A stretch of DNA of 64,000 nt, from assembly GCF_009846885.1 (NCBI RefSeq), contig NZ_WUWM01000007.1, positions 1 through 64,000 on the forward strand, in the 5' to 3' direction. Position 1 is the first letter of the stretch, and every line of letters starts with the position of its first letter. The notes under the pieces are model-generated. The model ran no database searches. It was not told where the DNA came from and saw nothing but the letters and a program-made list of their open reading frames with translations. Of the stretch, positions 12,679-64,000 are shown piece by piece. Both the position numbers and the translations under genes were made by a program. Source of the DNA: Paenibacillus puerhi (GTDB lineage: Bacteria > Bacillota > Bacilli > Paenibacillales > NBRC-103111).

Positions 12679-13411
12679 CTACTTGTCCGGGTTTATGGGT
12701 AGAGGGGGCCGCCTTTGTACCGAGCATATCCTCTTCCTTGATTCTCGCAATCATCGCAACCGTAGGAAGATCCAGGAACTGCTTGATGTCGTCCTCCGTC
12801 TTAATGGAGTCGTCAAGATATTCCATCAGGAAGGCCAGTCCGATCGCGATCATCAGGGAAACGACCAGGCTGATGGCTATATTCAGCTTTGGGTTAGGCT
12901 TAACAGGAGACGGATTGTCCAGATAGGTCGCCTCGTTCAGAAGCGAAACATTATCTACTTTCATAATAGATGGAATCTCATCCTGGAATACCTTGGACAC
13001 CGCATTCACGATATCCGCTGCTTTATTGTAAGAGTTGTCTTGTACGATAAGTGTCATGACCTGGGTGTTATTGACAGAACTAACTCGAACTTTCTTAATC
13101 AGTTGATCCGAATTGAGATTAAATTGCGGATAATCCTTGGCTACTTTATCCATAATCCGCGGTGTCTTGATAACTTCCTTGTACGTATCGATCAATCGGA
13201 TATTCAAGTTAACCGAGTTGATATCTACCTGCTGCAGGCCTTGCTGTTCATTGGACTTGTTCACAATCAATTTCGTAGAAGCCTCATAGACCGGCTCCAT
13301 GAAAAAATAACTGACAATACCTGTTGCCAGCGTGCACAACAATACAAAGGCAAGGATTAGCCAGATCCGCTTGCGAATGATCTTGATATAATCCTTCAAA
13401 TCGAGTTCCAT
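12647..13411 (-). CDS. CapA/YveK-type Wzz chain-length regulator
   Basis: 254 residues. Two membrane helices (about 18 to 38 and 172 to 195) flank an extracytoplasmic Wzz domain, starting MELDLKDYIKIIRKRIWLILAF. A proline-rich turn (LDNPSPVKPNPKLN) precedes the second helix, and a cytoplasmic tail follows that activates the partner kinase. Length and layout match YveK, CapA and CpsC. ATG start with GGGGGA. It is paired with the active BY-kinase downstream and has a paralogue at 62899 in the EPS operon. Confidence 0.92.
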   Translation of the reverse strand: MELDLKDYIKIIRKRIWLILAFVLLCTLATGIVSYFFMEPVYEASTKLIVNKSNEQQGLQQVDINSVNLNIRLIDTYKEVIKTPRIMDKVAKDYPQFNLNSDQLIKKVRVSSVNNTQVMTLIVQDNSYNKAADIVNAVSKVFQDEIPSIMKVDNVSLLNEATYLDNPSPVKPNPKLNIAISLVVSLMIAIGLAFLMEYLDDSIKTEDDIKQFLDLPTVAMIARIKEEDMLGTKAAPSTHKPGQVGETTRATINQ

Positions 13412-39211: not shown

Positions 39212-39242
39212 AAAAAAGCAGCAAGCCATTACTGGGCTTGCT
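39212..39242 (-). terminator. Intrinsic terminator of sinR
   Basis: On the minus strand AGCAAGCC, a 7-base loop, GGCTTGCT, then GCTTTTTT. The stem overlaps the last codons and the stop of sinR. Confidence 0.8.
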
Positions 39243-39573
39243 CGTAAGTGAGAGCTTCCCGGGATTTGAGCTGTCTGACCATCCGGCGAAGGGTATCCTT
39301 GCTCAGGCCTAGCTCGTTCAGCTCCTGTATAATCTGAACCCATTCCTGATCGATAGGCTCCGTTTTATTATCCGAAGTTTCATGCAGTATGAGGGATTGC
39401 ACCGTAACGCCCAGCACCGGCGCCAGCTTGCGCAAAAATTGGATGGATGGATTGGATTGAAGATCCCGCTCGATGGAGCTAAGGTACGATTTGGCGACGC
39501 CTGCCCGCGCAGCAAGTTCCGTTATGGACATACGCTTCTGATGACGAAGATTTTGAATACGTGTACCGATCAT
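39229..39573 (-). CDS. sinR: SinR-type biofilm master repressor
   Basis: 114 residues. The XRE helix-turn-helix (MSITELAARAGVAKSYLSSIERDLQ) matches SinR closely, including the SNPSIQFLRKLAPVLGV stretch. The C-terminal PIDQEWVQIIQELNELGLSKDTLRRMV resembles the SinI-binding helical hairpin of SinR. SinR represses matrix operons and is relieved by SinI; no sinI gene is seen here. ATG with AGGAGGAAT. It is divergent from the first XRE gene, and two GATAC-N5-GTATC dyads lie in the shared region. Confidence 0.92.
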   Translation of the reverse strand: MIGTRIQNLRHQKRMSITELAARAGVAKSYLSSIERDLQSNPSIQFLRKLAPVLGVTVQSLILHETSDNKTEPIDQEWVQIIQELNELGLSKDTLRRMVRQLKSREALTYEQAQ

Positions 39574-39627: not shown

Positions 39628-39665
39628 TATACTCATTGTATCATAAAAAAGATACTATTTGTATC
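39628..39665. promoter_or_regulatory. Paired GATAC-N5-GTATC operators between sinR and xre1
   Basis: TATACTCATTGTATC (39628 to 39642) and GATACTATTTGTATC (39651 to 39665). The first has one mismatch to the dyad and the second is perfect. Their centres are 23 bases apart, as in the matching pair near 40250. They lie 55 to 92 bases upstream of sinR. Confidence 0.65.
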
Positions 39666-39830: not shown

Positions 39831-40202
39831 ATGAATATGATCGGGGAAAGGATCGCTCTTCTTCGGGAGAAAATGGGTATGACGCAAGAGGAACTTTCCA
39901 AGAAGATCGATATTTCCCGTGCTTCACTATGCCATTACGAGAAAAGCCGCAGGGAACCGGACTATGAGACCCTCATGAAGATTGCGGATCTCTTTAGAGT
40001 TTCAGCCGACTATCTCATGGGCAGGACGAATGACCCCCACCAAACTTTAGACCCAAATATTCGGTCGTTTGTCGATCAGCTCGAATTGTCGGATGAACTC
40101 TTGGTGGATAAATTTGCTTTGATGGTGGACGGCACCAAGTTATCCTTCGAAGAAGCCAAACGCTTTATTGCCTTTGTAAGAGCAGAACGGGCCATCAGGT
40201 AA
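39831..40202 (+). CDS. XRE-family repressor, first of a tandem pair
   Basis: 123 residues. An N-terminal helix-turn-helix (MTQEELSKKIDISRASLCHYEKSRREPDYETLMKIADLF, seen in parts) resembles the phage PBSX Xre repressor class. A C-terminal domain (LELSDELLVDKFAL, LSFEEAKRFIAFVRAER) is shared with its neighbour at 40625, to which it is strongly similar along its full length. ATG with GGAGGG about ten bases upstream. Its promoter carries a GATAC-type dyad, suggesting autoregulation. Confidence 0.9.
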   Translation: MNMIGERIALLREKMGMTQEELSKKIDISRASLCHYEKSRREPDYETLMKIADLFRVSADYLMGRTNDPHQTLDPNIRSFVDQLELSDELLVDKFALMVDGTKLSFEEAKRFIAFVRAERAIR

Positions 40203-40624: not shown

Positions 40625-40993
40625 TTGGGGCAAATAGGAAATAGAATCGCTGCTCTGCGCGAGAAACAAGCCATGACCCAAGAAGAACTATCGATTAAGC
40701 TTGATATTTCCAGAGCATCCTTGTCGCATTACGAGAAGAATCGAAGAGAACCAGACTATGACACGCTGGTAAAGATTGCGAATTTCTTCAAAGTTTCCAT
40801 TGATTTTTTACTTGGCCGCACGGAAGATCCGGATATGGTGCTGGATTCAGAGGTCCGCTTGTTCGTGGACAGCCTGGAGCTTTCCGATGAACGTATAATG
40901 CAGAACTTTGCGCTAACGATTGACGGCAAGGAATTAACGCCCGAGGAAGCCAAACGTTTTATCGCCTTTGTACGGGCAGAACGCTCCTTCTAA
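40625..40993 (+). CDS. XRE-family repressor, second of a tandem pair
   Basis: 122 residues from a TTG with GGGGTGATC about eight bases upstream. The helix-turn-helix begins MTQEELSIKLDISRASLSHY and the C-terminal part (LELSDERIMQNFALTIDGKELTPEEAKRF, in pieces) parallels its neighbour. The pair differs mainly at a few positions in the first helices and in the middle region, so they may have split specificity. It lies just before the convergent end of the EPS operon. Its promoter holds a GATAC dyad. Confidence 0.9.
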   Translation: MGQIGNRIAALREKQAMTQEELSIKLDISRASLSHYEKNRREPDYDTLVKIANFFKVSIDFLLGRTEDPDMVLDSEVRLFVDSLELSDERIMQNFALTIDGKELTPEEAKRFIAFVRAERSF

Positions 40994-62282: not shown

Positions 62283-62918
62283 TTAGACCGATACCGTCTT
62301 ATCCTTATTCATGAGCACACCCAATAAATTGGCCTTGACACGCTCCAACTCTTCTTTGGATCGCTTGGCCAACGCACGCTTCACCTTGCCTTGCTGCACG
62401 ACGAAGACAACCCCGTCGCATTTGGCGCTAATAATTTTCGAATCGATATGTCCGATAACCGGAGGCGCATCAACCACGACCATATCGAATTCCTGCTTCA
62501 GCCTTGCAAGCAGCTCATCCATCTCCTGCGAGGAGAGCAGATCTGAGATTTGAGAGGCGCCCGTTCCCGCAAAGAGCAGGGACAAATTCCTCATGTCGGA
62601 AGCTGATAAAACCTCGGACAGCTCGCTCGACTTGTTCAGTACATTCGTCAAACCGCGCGCATTGGGCTCCCCATAAAACGTATGAACGCCGGGATTTCGA
62701 ACATCGGCATCGACAAGGATCGTCCTTTTGCCCGACTGGGCATAGGCGCTCGCCAAGTTGACAGCCGTTGTCGTCCTTCCTTCCCCTCGTCCCGCCGATG
62801 TGACGGCTACGGTCCGGATGGCCGGATCCGACGAAGATTTGAAATCGATATTCACCCTTAGCTCGACATAGGCCTCCGGAAGACCCTGCTGTTCTTCTCT
62901 AGTTTTCGACTGTCGCAT
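62283..62918 (-). CDS. CapB-like BY-kinase homologue, probable pseudokinase
   Basis: 211 residues. It keeps EAYVELRVNI (partner contact), Walker A' (TILVDADVRNP) and Walker B (MVVVDAPPVIG). The Walker A motif reads GRGEGRTT, so the essential Lys is Arg48 and the usual Pro is Arg44. The C-terminus ends KDKTVSV and has no tyrosine cluster, unlike the kinase at 11965. ATP binding or phosphotransfer may therefore be reduced or absent. It may act as a regulator of Wzz or work with the other kinase. ATG with AGGAGGGGA; it overlaps the Wzz gene by 20 bases. Confidence 0.88.
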   Translation of the reverse strand: MRQSKTREEQQGLPEAYVELRVNIDFKSSSDPAIRTVAVTSAGRGEGRTTTAVNLASAYAQSGKRTILVDADVRNPGVHTFYGEPNARGLTNVLNKSSELSEVLSASDMRNLSLLFAGTGASQISDLLSSQEMDELLARLKQEFDMVVVDAPPVIGHIDSKIISAKCDGVVFVVQQGKVKRALAKRSKEELERVKANLLGVLMNKDKTVSV

Positions 62919-63654
62919 AGGCGATTTCCCCTCCTTGGCTGCGCGGTCTGGCCTGCTTCAACGACTTCATCTGATTTTTCTTCATGACCGGCACCGCTGC
63001 CAGCATCTCCAGCCCCATCACCTGGGCTACGTCTTGCTCTGACTTCAGCGTATCATCCAAGAACTCCAGAAGGAGCACGACTCCGAGCGCAAACACCAAA
63101 GCAACAAACGCGCTGATAAACACGTACATATTGGATTTCTGATTGATCGGCACCGGACGCTCTTTCATTTCGGCCGTGTGCAAGATCTCAATATTGTTCA
63201 CCTTCATAATTTCCGGAATCTCGGTCTGGAAGACCGCCGTGACCGCATTCACCACGTTCATCGCTCGTTCGTATGAGAAATCCCTGACGCTGATCGTCAT
63301 GACCTGCGTGTTGTTAATGGATTGAACATTGATAATCTGGCTTAACTCCGCTGTCGTTAGATTCAAGTCCGGATATCGTTGAACCACCTTTCCCATAACG
63401 GCAGGAGTCCTGATTATTTCCTTATAGGTGTCTATTAATCGGATACTATAGGCCATCGAACCCAGATCCATTTGCTTATTGCCCAACTCCTCCAATTCGA
63501 CGGTTTTATTGACGATAACTTTTGTCGAGGCTTGGTAAATAGGGTGATAATTGTACTGGTTGTACACGGCCGTCGTGATCGTCGCGATAATAACTACTAG
63601 AAGAACAATCCATGAACGTTTTTTAAGCACTCGCACGAGTTCTTTGGGTTCCAT
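62899..63654 (-). CDS. CapA/YveK-type Wzz chain-length regulator of the EPS operon
   Basis: 251 residues, two membrane helices (about 17 to 37 and 174 to 196) flanking the Wzz domain; starts MEPKELVRVLKKRSWIVLLVVI. A VPINQKSNMYVFIS stretch precedes the second helix. It is paralogous to the protein at 12647. ATG with GGAGG six bases upstream. It is the first gene of the EPS operon and is transcribed from a promoter holding two GATAC-type dyads. Confidence 0.92.
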   Translation of the reverse strand: MEPKELVRVLKKRSWIVLLVVIIATITTAVYNQYNYHPIYQASTKVIVNKTVELEELGNKQMDLGSMAYSIRLIDTYKEIIRTPAVMGKVVQRYPDLNLTTAELSQIINVQSINNTQVMTISVRDFSYERAMNVVNAVTAVFQTEIPEIMKVNNIEILHTAEMKERPVPINQKSNMYVFISAFVALVFALGVVLLLEFLDDTLKSEQDVAQVMGLEMLAAVPVMKKNQMKSLKQARPRSQGGEIAYATVEN

Positions 63655-63707: not shown

Positions 63708-63765
63708 GATACACAATGTATCGGGTTTATATCCTTACTCTATGATACAATATGTATCTTGTCAA
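63708..63765 (-). promoter_or_regulatory. EPS operon promoter with two operators
   Basis: Minus-strand TTGACA (plus 63760 to 63765), 17-base spacer, TAGAGT (plus 63737 to 63742). GATACAATATGTATC (63744 to 63758) fills the spacer and GATACACAATGTATC (63708 to 63722) lies about 15 to 30 bases into the transcript. Both dyads are perfect in the outer five bases. A bound repressor at the spacer would block RNA polymerase. Confidence 0.65.
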
Positions 63766-63879: not shown

Positions 63880-63932
63880 TAGACAACGAGGATACGAAGC
63901 GTATATAATCCACCTAGGATACACAGCGTATC
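63880..63932 (+). promoter_or_regulatory. Promoter of the truncated peptide gene, with two operators
   Basis: TAGACA (63880 to 63885), 18-base spacer, TATAAT (63904 to 63909). GATACGAAGCGTATA (63891 to 63905) overlaps the -10 box; GATACACAGCGTATC (63918 to 63932) lies downstream near the start site. This is the same arrangement as at both xre promoters and the EPS promoter. Confidence 0.65.
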
Positions 63933-63964
63933 TGAAATAGAGAGAATCATAGGAGGTGAGTATT

Positions 63965-64000
63965 TTGGAGAAGAAACGTTACGCAAAACCTGAAGTAACC
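63965..64000 (+). CDS. Start of a lasso-peptide-like precursor, truncated by window end
   Basis: TTG at 63965 with AGGAGGTGAG four bases upstream. The first twelve codons give MEKKRYAKPEVT. The YxxP part (Tyr-Ala-Lys-Pro) matches the leader motif YxxPxL/V of lasso peptide precursors, including the paeninodin type of Paenibacillus, where short leaders begin with a Lys-rich segment. The rest lies beyond the window, so the core cannot be judged, and other RiPP or non-RiPP short proteins are possible. Its promoter is good and carries two operators. Confidence 0.5.
   Translation, partial: MEKKRYAKPEVT

Follow-up and report, generated by a model that had tools for sequence, protein, structure and literature searches.

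Linear polyphosphorylated peptides (LPPs) are the closest described relatives of the product discussed here. Their precursors carry the motif YxxPxVLxHQxIxFETxxS, and the gene set encodes the RRE LppB, the kinase LppK, the SipW-like peptidase LppS, the transporter LppD and the NTP transferase LppN, within capsule/EPS loci of Bacilli (Popov et al., Nat Commun 2026, PMC13381572). In that system the leader is cleaved after FET, and several phosphates are placed on Ser3 of the core. In P. alginolyticus lppB and an EPS gene rise synchronously, and no regulator was named (Popov et al., PMC13381572). A second related group is formed by the paeninodin-type lasso clusters (pdn/pba), which contain an RRE, an HprK-like kinase, an NTP transferase, an ABC exporter and a [Y/W]xxPx[L/V] leader. 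In Bacilli, for example in B. subtilis, EPS operons are repressed by XRE/SinR-type regulators of the HTH_3 type, acting at inverted-repeat operators that overlap the promoter.

The window analysed covers bases 1–64,000 of contig C67 (238,626 bases) of a 6.7 Mb genome. At its right edge, on the forward strand, lies a gene that we call lppA, identified from its open reading frame, its homologues and the published motif. Twelve codons (63965–64000) fall within the window, where the frame encodes MEKKRYAKPEVT, and the stop codon is at C67:64123. The complete product has 52 residues, MEKKRYAKPEVTNHEMISFETGLSSCIKVATIDGTNPVQRVCLKSDNTWHNL. The strong ribosome site of the original prediction is AGGAGGT at 63951–63957, 7 bases ahead of the TTG start, and the same AGGAGGT is found in all six species compared. 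An alternative GTG at 63956, nine bases 5′ of the TTG, falls within the Shine-Dalgarno sequence; it is an improbable start. Downstream of the gene, a hairpin of 13 pairs with a T-rich tail (64137–64167) forms a terminator, and lppA is therefore probably transcribed alone. The edge frame is thus a real RiPP precursor gene, with its own promoter, two operators and a terminator.

The YxxPxV motif noticed earlier is also genuine (Y6-x-x-P9-x-V11), an RRE-binding type of leader in a RiPP precursor from Paenibacillaceae. The leader reads Y6-AK-P9-E-V11-TN-H14-EM-I17-S-F19-E-T21-GL-S24, and deviates from the LPP motif only at L (T here) and Q (E here). If the cleavage and phosphorylation seen in P. 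alginolyticus are applied to lppA, the precursor would be cut after T21 and phosphorylated on Ser24, giving a predicted leader M1–T21, a predicted core G22–L52 and a predicted phosphorylation site at core S3. The window ends within this predicted leader, as had been proposed. The predicted 31-residue core is GLSSCIKVATIDGTNPVQRVCLKSDNTWHNL. The precursor on its own gave no usable match in Pfam or NCBIfam; a match to DUF5956 at E=0.18 was taken as chance.

Homologues of lppA were found in 10 genomes in a search of 100 relatives, among them one in Paenibacillus sp. cl123 (G018) with 88% identity over the full length. The genome itself holds three copies, at C67:63965, C67:73461 and C25:44053. 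In an alignment of 25 sequences Y6, P9, F19, E20, T21 and S24 (the serine at core +3) are invariant, and Cys26 and Cys42 are nearly so. These precursors form a two-cysteine subfamily, with GLSSC or LLSC ahead of ends that resemble VCLxPDGTW. A profile search of 104 family members extended the related leaders to 24 genomes, with seven copies in each of G011 and G045. Copies distant from the cluster occur in G000 (the present genome), G018, G009, G011, G045 and G007, each of which has one cluster. From this distribution of copies, one lpp enzyme set probably serves several scattered precursors, which in the present genome would mean three in trans.

The enzyme genes are found 3.2–8.7 kb downstream of lppA, beside its second copy and on the opposite strand. 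LppN (C67:71731–72720) was recognised by its NTP_transf_5 domain, and LppK (C67:70906–71718) is an HprK-like kinase. LppB (C67:70625–70909) is a PqqD-type RRE (E=1e-16), so that the RRE protein expected downstream is indeed there. LppS (C67:70165–70650) resembles a signal peptidase of the SipW type (TIGR02228, 3.4e-12; SipW, 1.1e-7; both below the curated cut-off), and LppD (C67:68357–70168) is an MsbA-like ABC transporter (MsbA, 494 bits, below the equivalog cut-off). A glycosyltransferase gene follows on the same strand (C67:67205–68329), beyond the window. Counting lppA, all six core lpp functions are found. Identities to the proteins of P. alginolyticus DSM 5050 (L089) are 48% for LppD, 44% for LppK, 43% for LppB, 39% for LppN and 34% for LppS.

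The best match of the RRE in the PDB is the solved LppB (9x8z, 71.8 bits); PbaB1 (9x90), a lasso RRE from the same organism as that LppB, reaches 26 bits. The equivalents of LppB N33 and D70, the two residues defining LPP recognition, are kept in all nine clusters compared, whereas the lasso RRE of L089 carries G and Q at these positions. The catalytic Ser/His/Asp of LppS (equivalents of Ser29, His68 and Asp93) is likewise kept in 9/9. The same gene cluster, with a nearby lppA, occurs at eight other Paenibacillaceae loci. Among the 100 relatives, the ten precursor-positive genomes also give the ten strongest LppK matches, a ranking that is partly built in because the kinases of nine of them formed the kinase profile. 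All 18 precursor-positive genomes of the wider profile search that were covered by the kinase search are also kinase-positive, in a count that ignores kinship.

Two NCBI systems considered for the kinase proved to be distant relatives: HPr-rel-A (27 bits against a cut-off of 200) and SynChlorMet (34 against 125). No paper in the library searched names HPr-rel-A. A second HprK homologue in the genome (C16, L105:8717–9559) is solitary: its surroundings contain neither an RRE nor a peptidase nor an NTP transferase, and it was rejected as a second RiPP cluster.

The lppA frame stops at 52 residues and does not run on as a long protein. The refuting condition of the original prediction nevertheless applies in part: the enzymes begin only 3.2 kb past the lppA stop, and the adjoining gene (C67:64326–67136; L003:1326–4136) encodes a PA14-domain protein. 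This protein has 936 residues and looks secreted, and its only family match is the PA14 domain at the C-terminus. Nearly every lpp cluster of the two-cysteine subfamily has a conserved copy next to it, and the protein may act on the exopolysaccharide.

The locus shares with the P. alginolyticus lppAKBSDN system (PMC13381572) the six gene functions, the leader motif through FET-xx-S, N33/D70 of LppB, the LppS catalytic residues and the location at an EPS/capsule locus. It differs in gene order, which is lppN-K-B-S-D here and K-B-S-D-N there, and in having scattered, monocistronic lppA copies, GATAC-N5-GTATC operators and no lasso cluster in the genome. The core also differs, being Gly/Asn-rich (AQSWNKGHGN...) in P. 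alginolyticus and its neighbours, whereas here it has two cysteines and a Thr-Trp end. This difference in the core counts against assignment to the LPPs, as do the monocistronic edge copy, 3.2 kb from the enzymes, and the second copy lying nearer to them. Gene, motif, cluster and key residues nevertheless lead us to place LppA in the LPP family with high confidence.

From the characterised P. alginolyticus system we infer the following chemistry, for which the downstream cluster would supply the enzymes. The discrete RRE LppB would bind the leader at Y6-x-x-P9-x-V11, and LppK would place one or more phosphates on Ser24. LppB would then hand the precursor to LppS, and a cut after F-E-T21 would free the core. 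LppN, perhaps with the local glycosyltransferase, would attach a further group, and LppD would export the peptide. The most probable product is a linear peptide that is RRE-guided and Ser-phosphorylated, and that is made alongside exopolysaccharide.

Conservation of the two cysteines in nearly all 25 aligned members suggests an alternative, in which they carry the main modification, as a disulfide or a thioether, and phosphorylation is secondary. We consider this very unlikely: neither the cluster itself nor the gene set recurring in the eight related clusters showed a radical SAM enzyme, a lanthionine enzyme or an enzyme that modifies thiols, and a plain disulfide is compatible with an LPP. 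In another alternative the edge gene would be a paralogue that is decayed or regulatory, which LppB binds but which is never matured, with the copy at 73461 as the real substrate. Its distance from the enzymes, its separate promoter and terminator, and its C-terminus, which lacks the PLPK found at the end of the second copy, would fit such a paralogue. However, a close relative retains it at 88% identity with every leader and serine position intact, its promoter and ribosome-binding site are conserved in six species, and several genomes maintain 4–7 precursor copies, which makes this alternative very improbable.

The remaining alternative, that of the original prediction, is a paeninodin-like lasso precursor whose leader is cut by B1/B2 and whose core is closed to a lariat by an Asn-synthetase-like cyclase; we give it next to no credence, and it is already refuted in practice. 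The YxxPxV leader, PqqD-type RRE, HprK-like kinase, NTP transferase and ABC exporter do recall paeninodin clusters. The macrolactam cyclase, the B2 peptidase and the ring acid are missing here, a SipW-like peptidase stands in place of B2, the motif has Tyr for Trp, the leader ends in FET where a lasso leader would have its T-2 pattern, and the RRE resembles LppB, with N33/D70. Gly or Ala was expected at core position 1, and the predicted core has glycine there (G22), but the Glu or Asp expected at positions 7 to 9 is absent. The predicted core begins GLSSCIKVATIDGTNP, and the first acidic residue of GLSSCIKVATIDG comes at position 12, or at 11 should the core begin with L23. No Asn-synthetase-like cyclase was found in the 20 kb read. 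The transglutaminase-like protease of lasso systems, the B2 leader peptidase domain Transglut_core3 (PF13471), has no match in the genome, which is 99.95% complete, and the two full-length Asn_synthase genes (C1, C11) have no RRE or kinase homologue nearby. The genome therefore appears to have no lasso machinery.

The assignment of lppA to the LPPs leaves its link with the EPS operon to be considered. The lppA promoter has TAGACA (63880–63885) and TATAAT (63904–63909) separated by 18 bp, matching 11 of 12 consensus positions. Divergent from it, on the reverse strand, the EPS promoter has TTGACA (63765–63760) and TAGAGT (63742–63737), and is followed by the first gene of the EPS operon, encoding a Wzz-like chain-length protein (62899–63654). 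The claim that the two promoters share operators is borne out: GATAC-N5-GTATC occurs on both sides, with one lppA site perfect and the other carrying a mismatch. The imperfect lppA operator, GATACGAAGCGTATA (63891–63905), lies in the promoter spacer and overlaps the -10, and the perfect one, GATACACAGCGTATC (63918–63932), is just 3′ of the expected transcription start. Both EPS operators are perfect: GATACAATATGTATC (63744–63758) lies between -35 and -10, and GATACACAATGTATC (63708–63722) is downstream of the -10. On both sides one site falls within the interval from -35 to -10 and a second follows closely behind the -10, a layout suited to repression.

The arrangement is conserved. The Wzz-like gene is divergent from lppA in this and five other species, in a syntenic locus of Wzz/CpsD/GalU. 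All six keep both EPS operators as well as the second lppA operator, and among them TAGACA is invariant and TATAAT nearly so; the imperfect first lppA operator is found only in this genome and its closest relative. Chance is a poor explanation for these sites, since their counts are far over expectation. The 346 bp intergenic stretch holds four, against a mean of 0.012 and a maximum of 1 in 2000 Markov shuffles. There are six perfect sites in the window (0.03 expected) and 21 in the genome (3 for a reversed control pattern), 11 of these 21 lying on C67 between 33615 and 90816.

Elsewhere in the window, a stretch at 12957–13202 is 66% identical to the Wzz-like gene, pointing to a possible second polysaccharide cluster.

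The operator is also found upstream of lppN, of the second and third lppA copies, of acyltransferase genes and of genes for XRE-type regulators. The two acyltransferase genes, far apart in the genome (L003:12153–13295, with an Acyl_transf_3 match, and C45:250319), each have an operator just upstream, and acylation of the EPS or of the peptide may be part of the regulon. Two XRE-type regulator genes on the forward strand, at 39831–40202 and 40625–40993, have operators upstream at 39651 and 40269 respectively, suggesting autoregulation and membership of a shared regulon; both products are candidate repressors. Divergent from the first is a SinR-like gene (39229–39573), and all three genes lie in the EPS region of the window. 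A perfect site lies no more than 500 bp away from 17 of the 44 LPP-type leaders inspected. Almost all of these 17 are of the two-cysteine type, typically with one site 31–60 bp 5′ of the start. No operator was found at P. alginolyticus lppA, and co-regulation through GATAC-N5-GTATC is therefore specific to the subfamily.

On the basis of the operator positions we propose that a repressor binding GATAC-N5-GTATC, most likely an XRE protein encoded within the regulon, would jointly repress the promoters of lppA, the lpp cluster and EPS; the peptide would therefore be made along with the exopolysaccharide. We regard this model of XRE repression of EPS and lpp as probable. It resembles the XRE/SinR-type repression of EPS in Bacilli in its EPS operon, its HTH_3 regulators and its inverted repeats overlapping the promoter. 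It differs in that the operator is GATAC-N5-GTATC and is common to RiPP precursor and enzyme genes, and in that the repressor is a candidate. Some Bacillus XRE repressors may bind similar sites. In a literature search, none of the titles listed was a direct match for XRE binding to a GATAC operator in Bacillus or Paenibacillus.

The locus is ordinary in kind, being an added member of the LPP family published in 2026; the original prediction recognised the precursor but assigned it to the wrong class of RiPP. What is new here is an operator common to the EPS operon, lppA, the lpp cluster and SinR/XRE-type regulator genes, together with the multi-copy two-cysteine subfamily itself. LPPs having been first described in 2026, the locus adds to them a compact subfamily with many natural core variants. 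The operator provides the sort of mechanism that the reported co-induction of lppB and an EPS gene in P. alginolyticus calls for, though lppA of that species is without it. The shared operator suggests a route to joint expression of EPS and lpp, and we infer, with low confidence, a matrix-related role for the peptide. A fuller version, which is speculative and which we hold with more doubt than conviction, is that one lpp set matures dispersed two-cysteine precursors, up to about seven per genome, which are derepressed from XRE control simultaneously with the exopolysaccharide; the secreted phosphopeptides would then be components or primers of the polysaccharide matrix, and not antibiotics. 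Since the operator joins lppA, the lpp enzymes, EPS and the XRE regulators in one predicted regulon, the suggested link to biofilm is directly testable.
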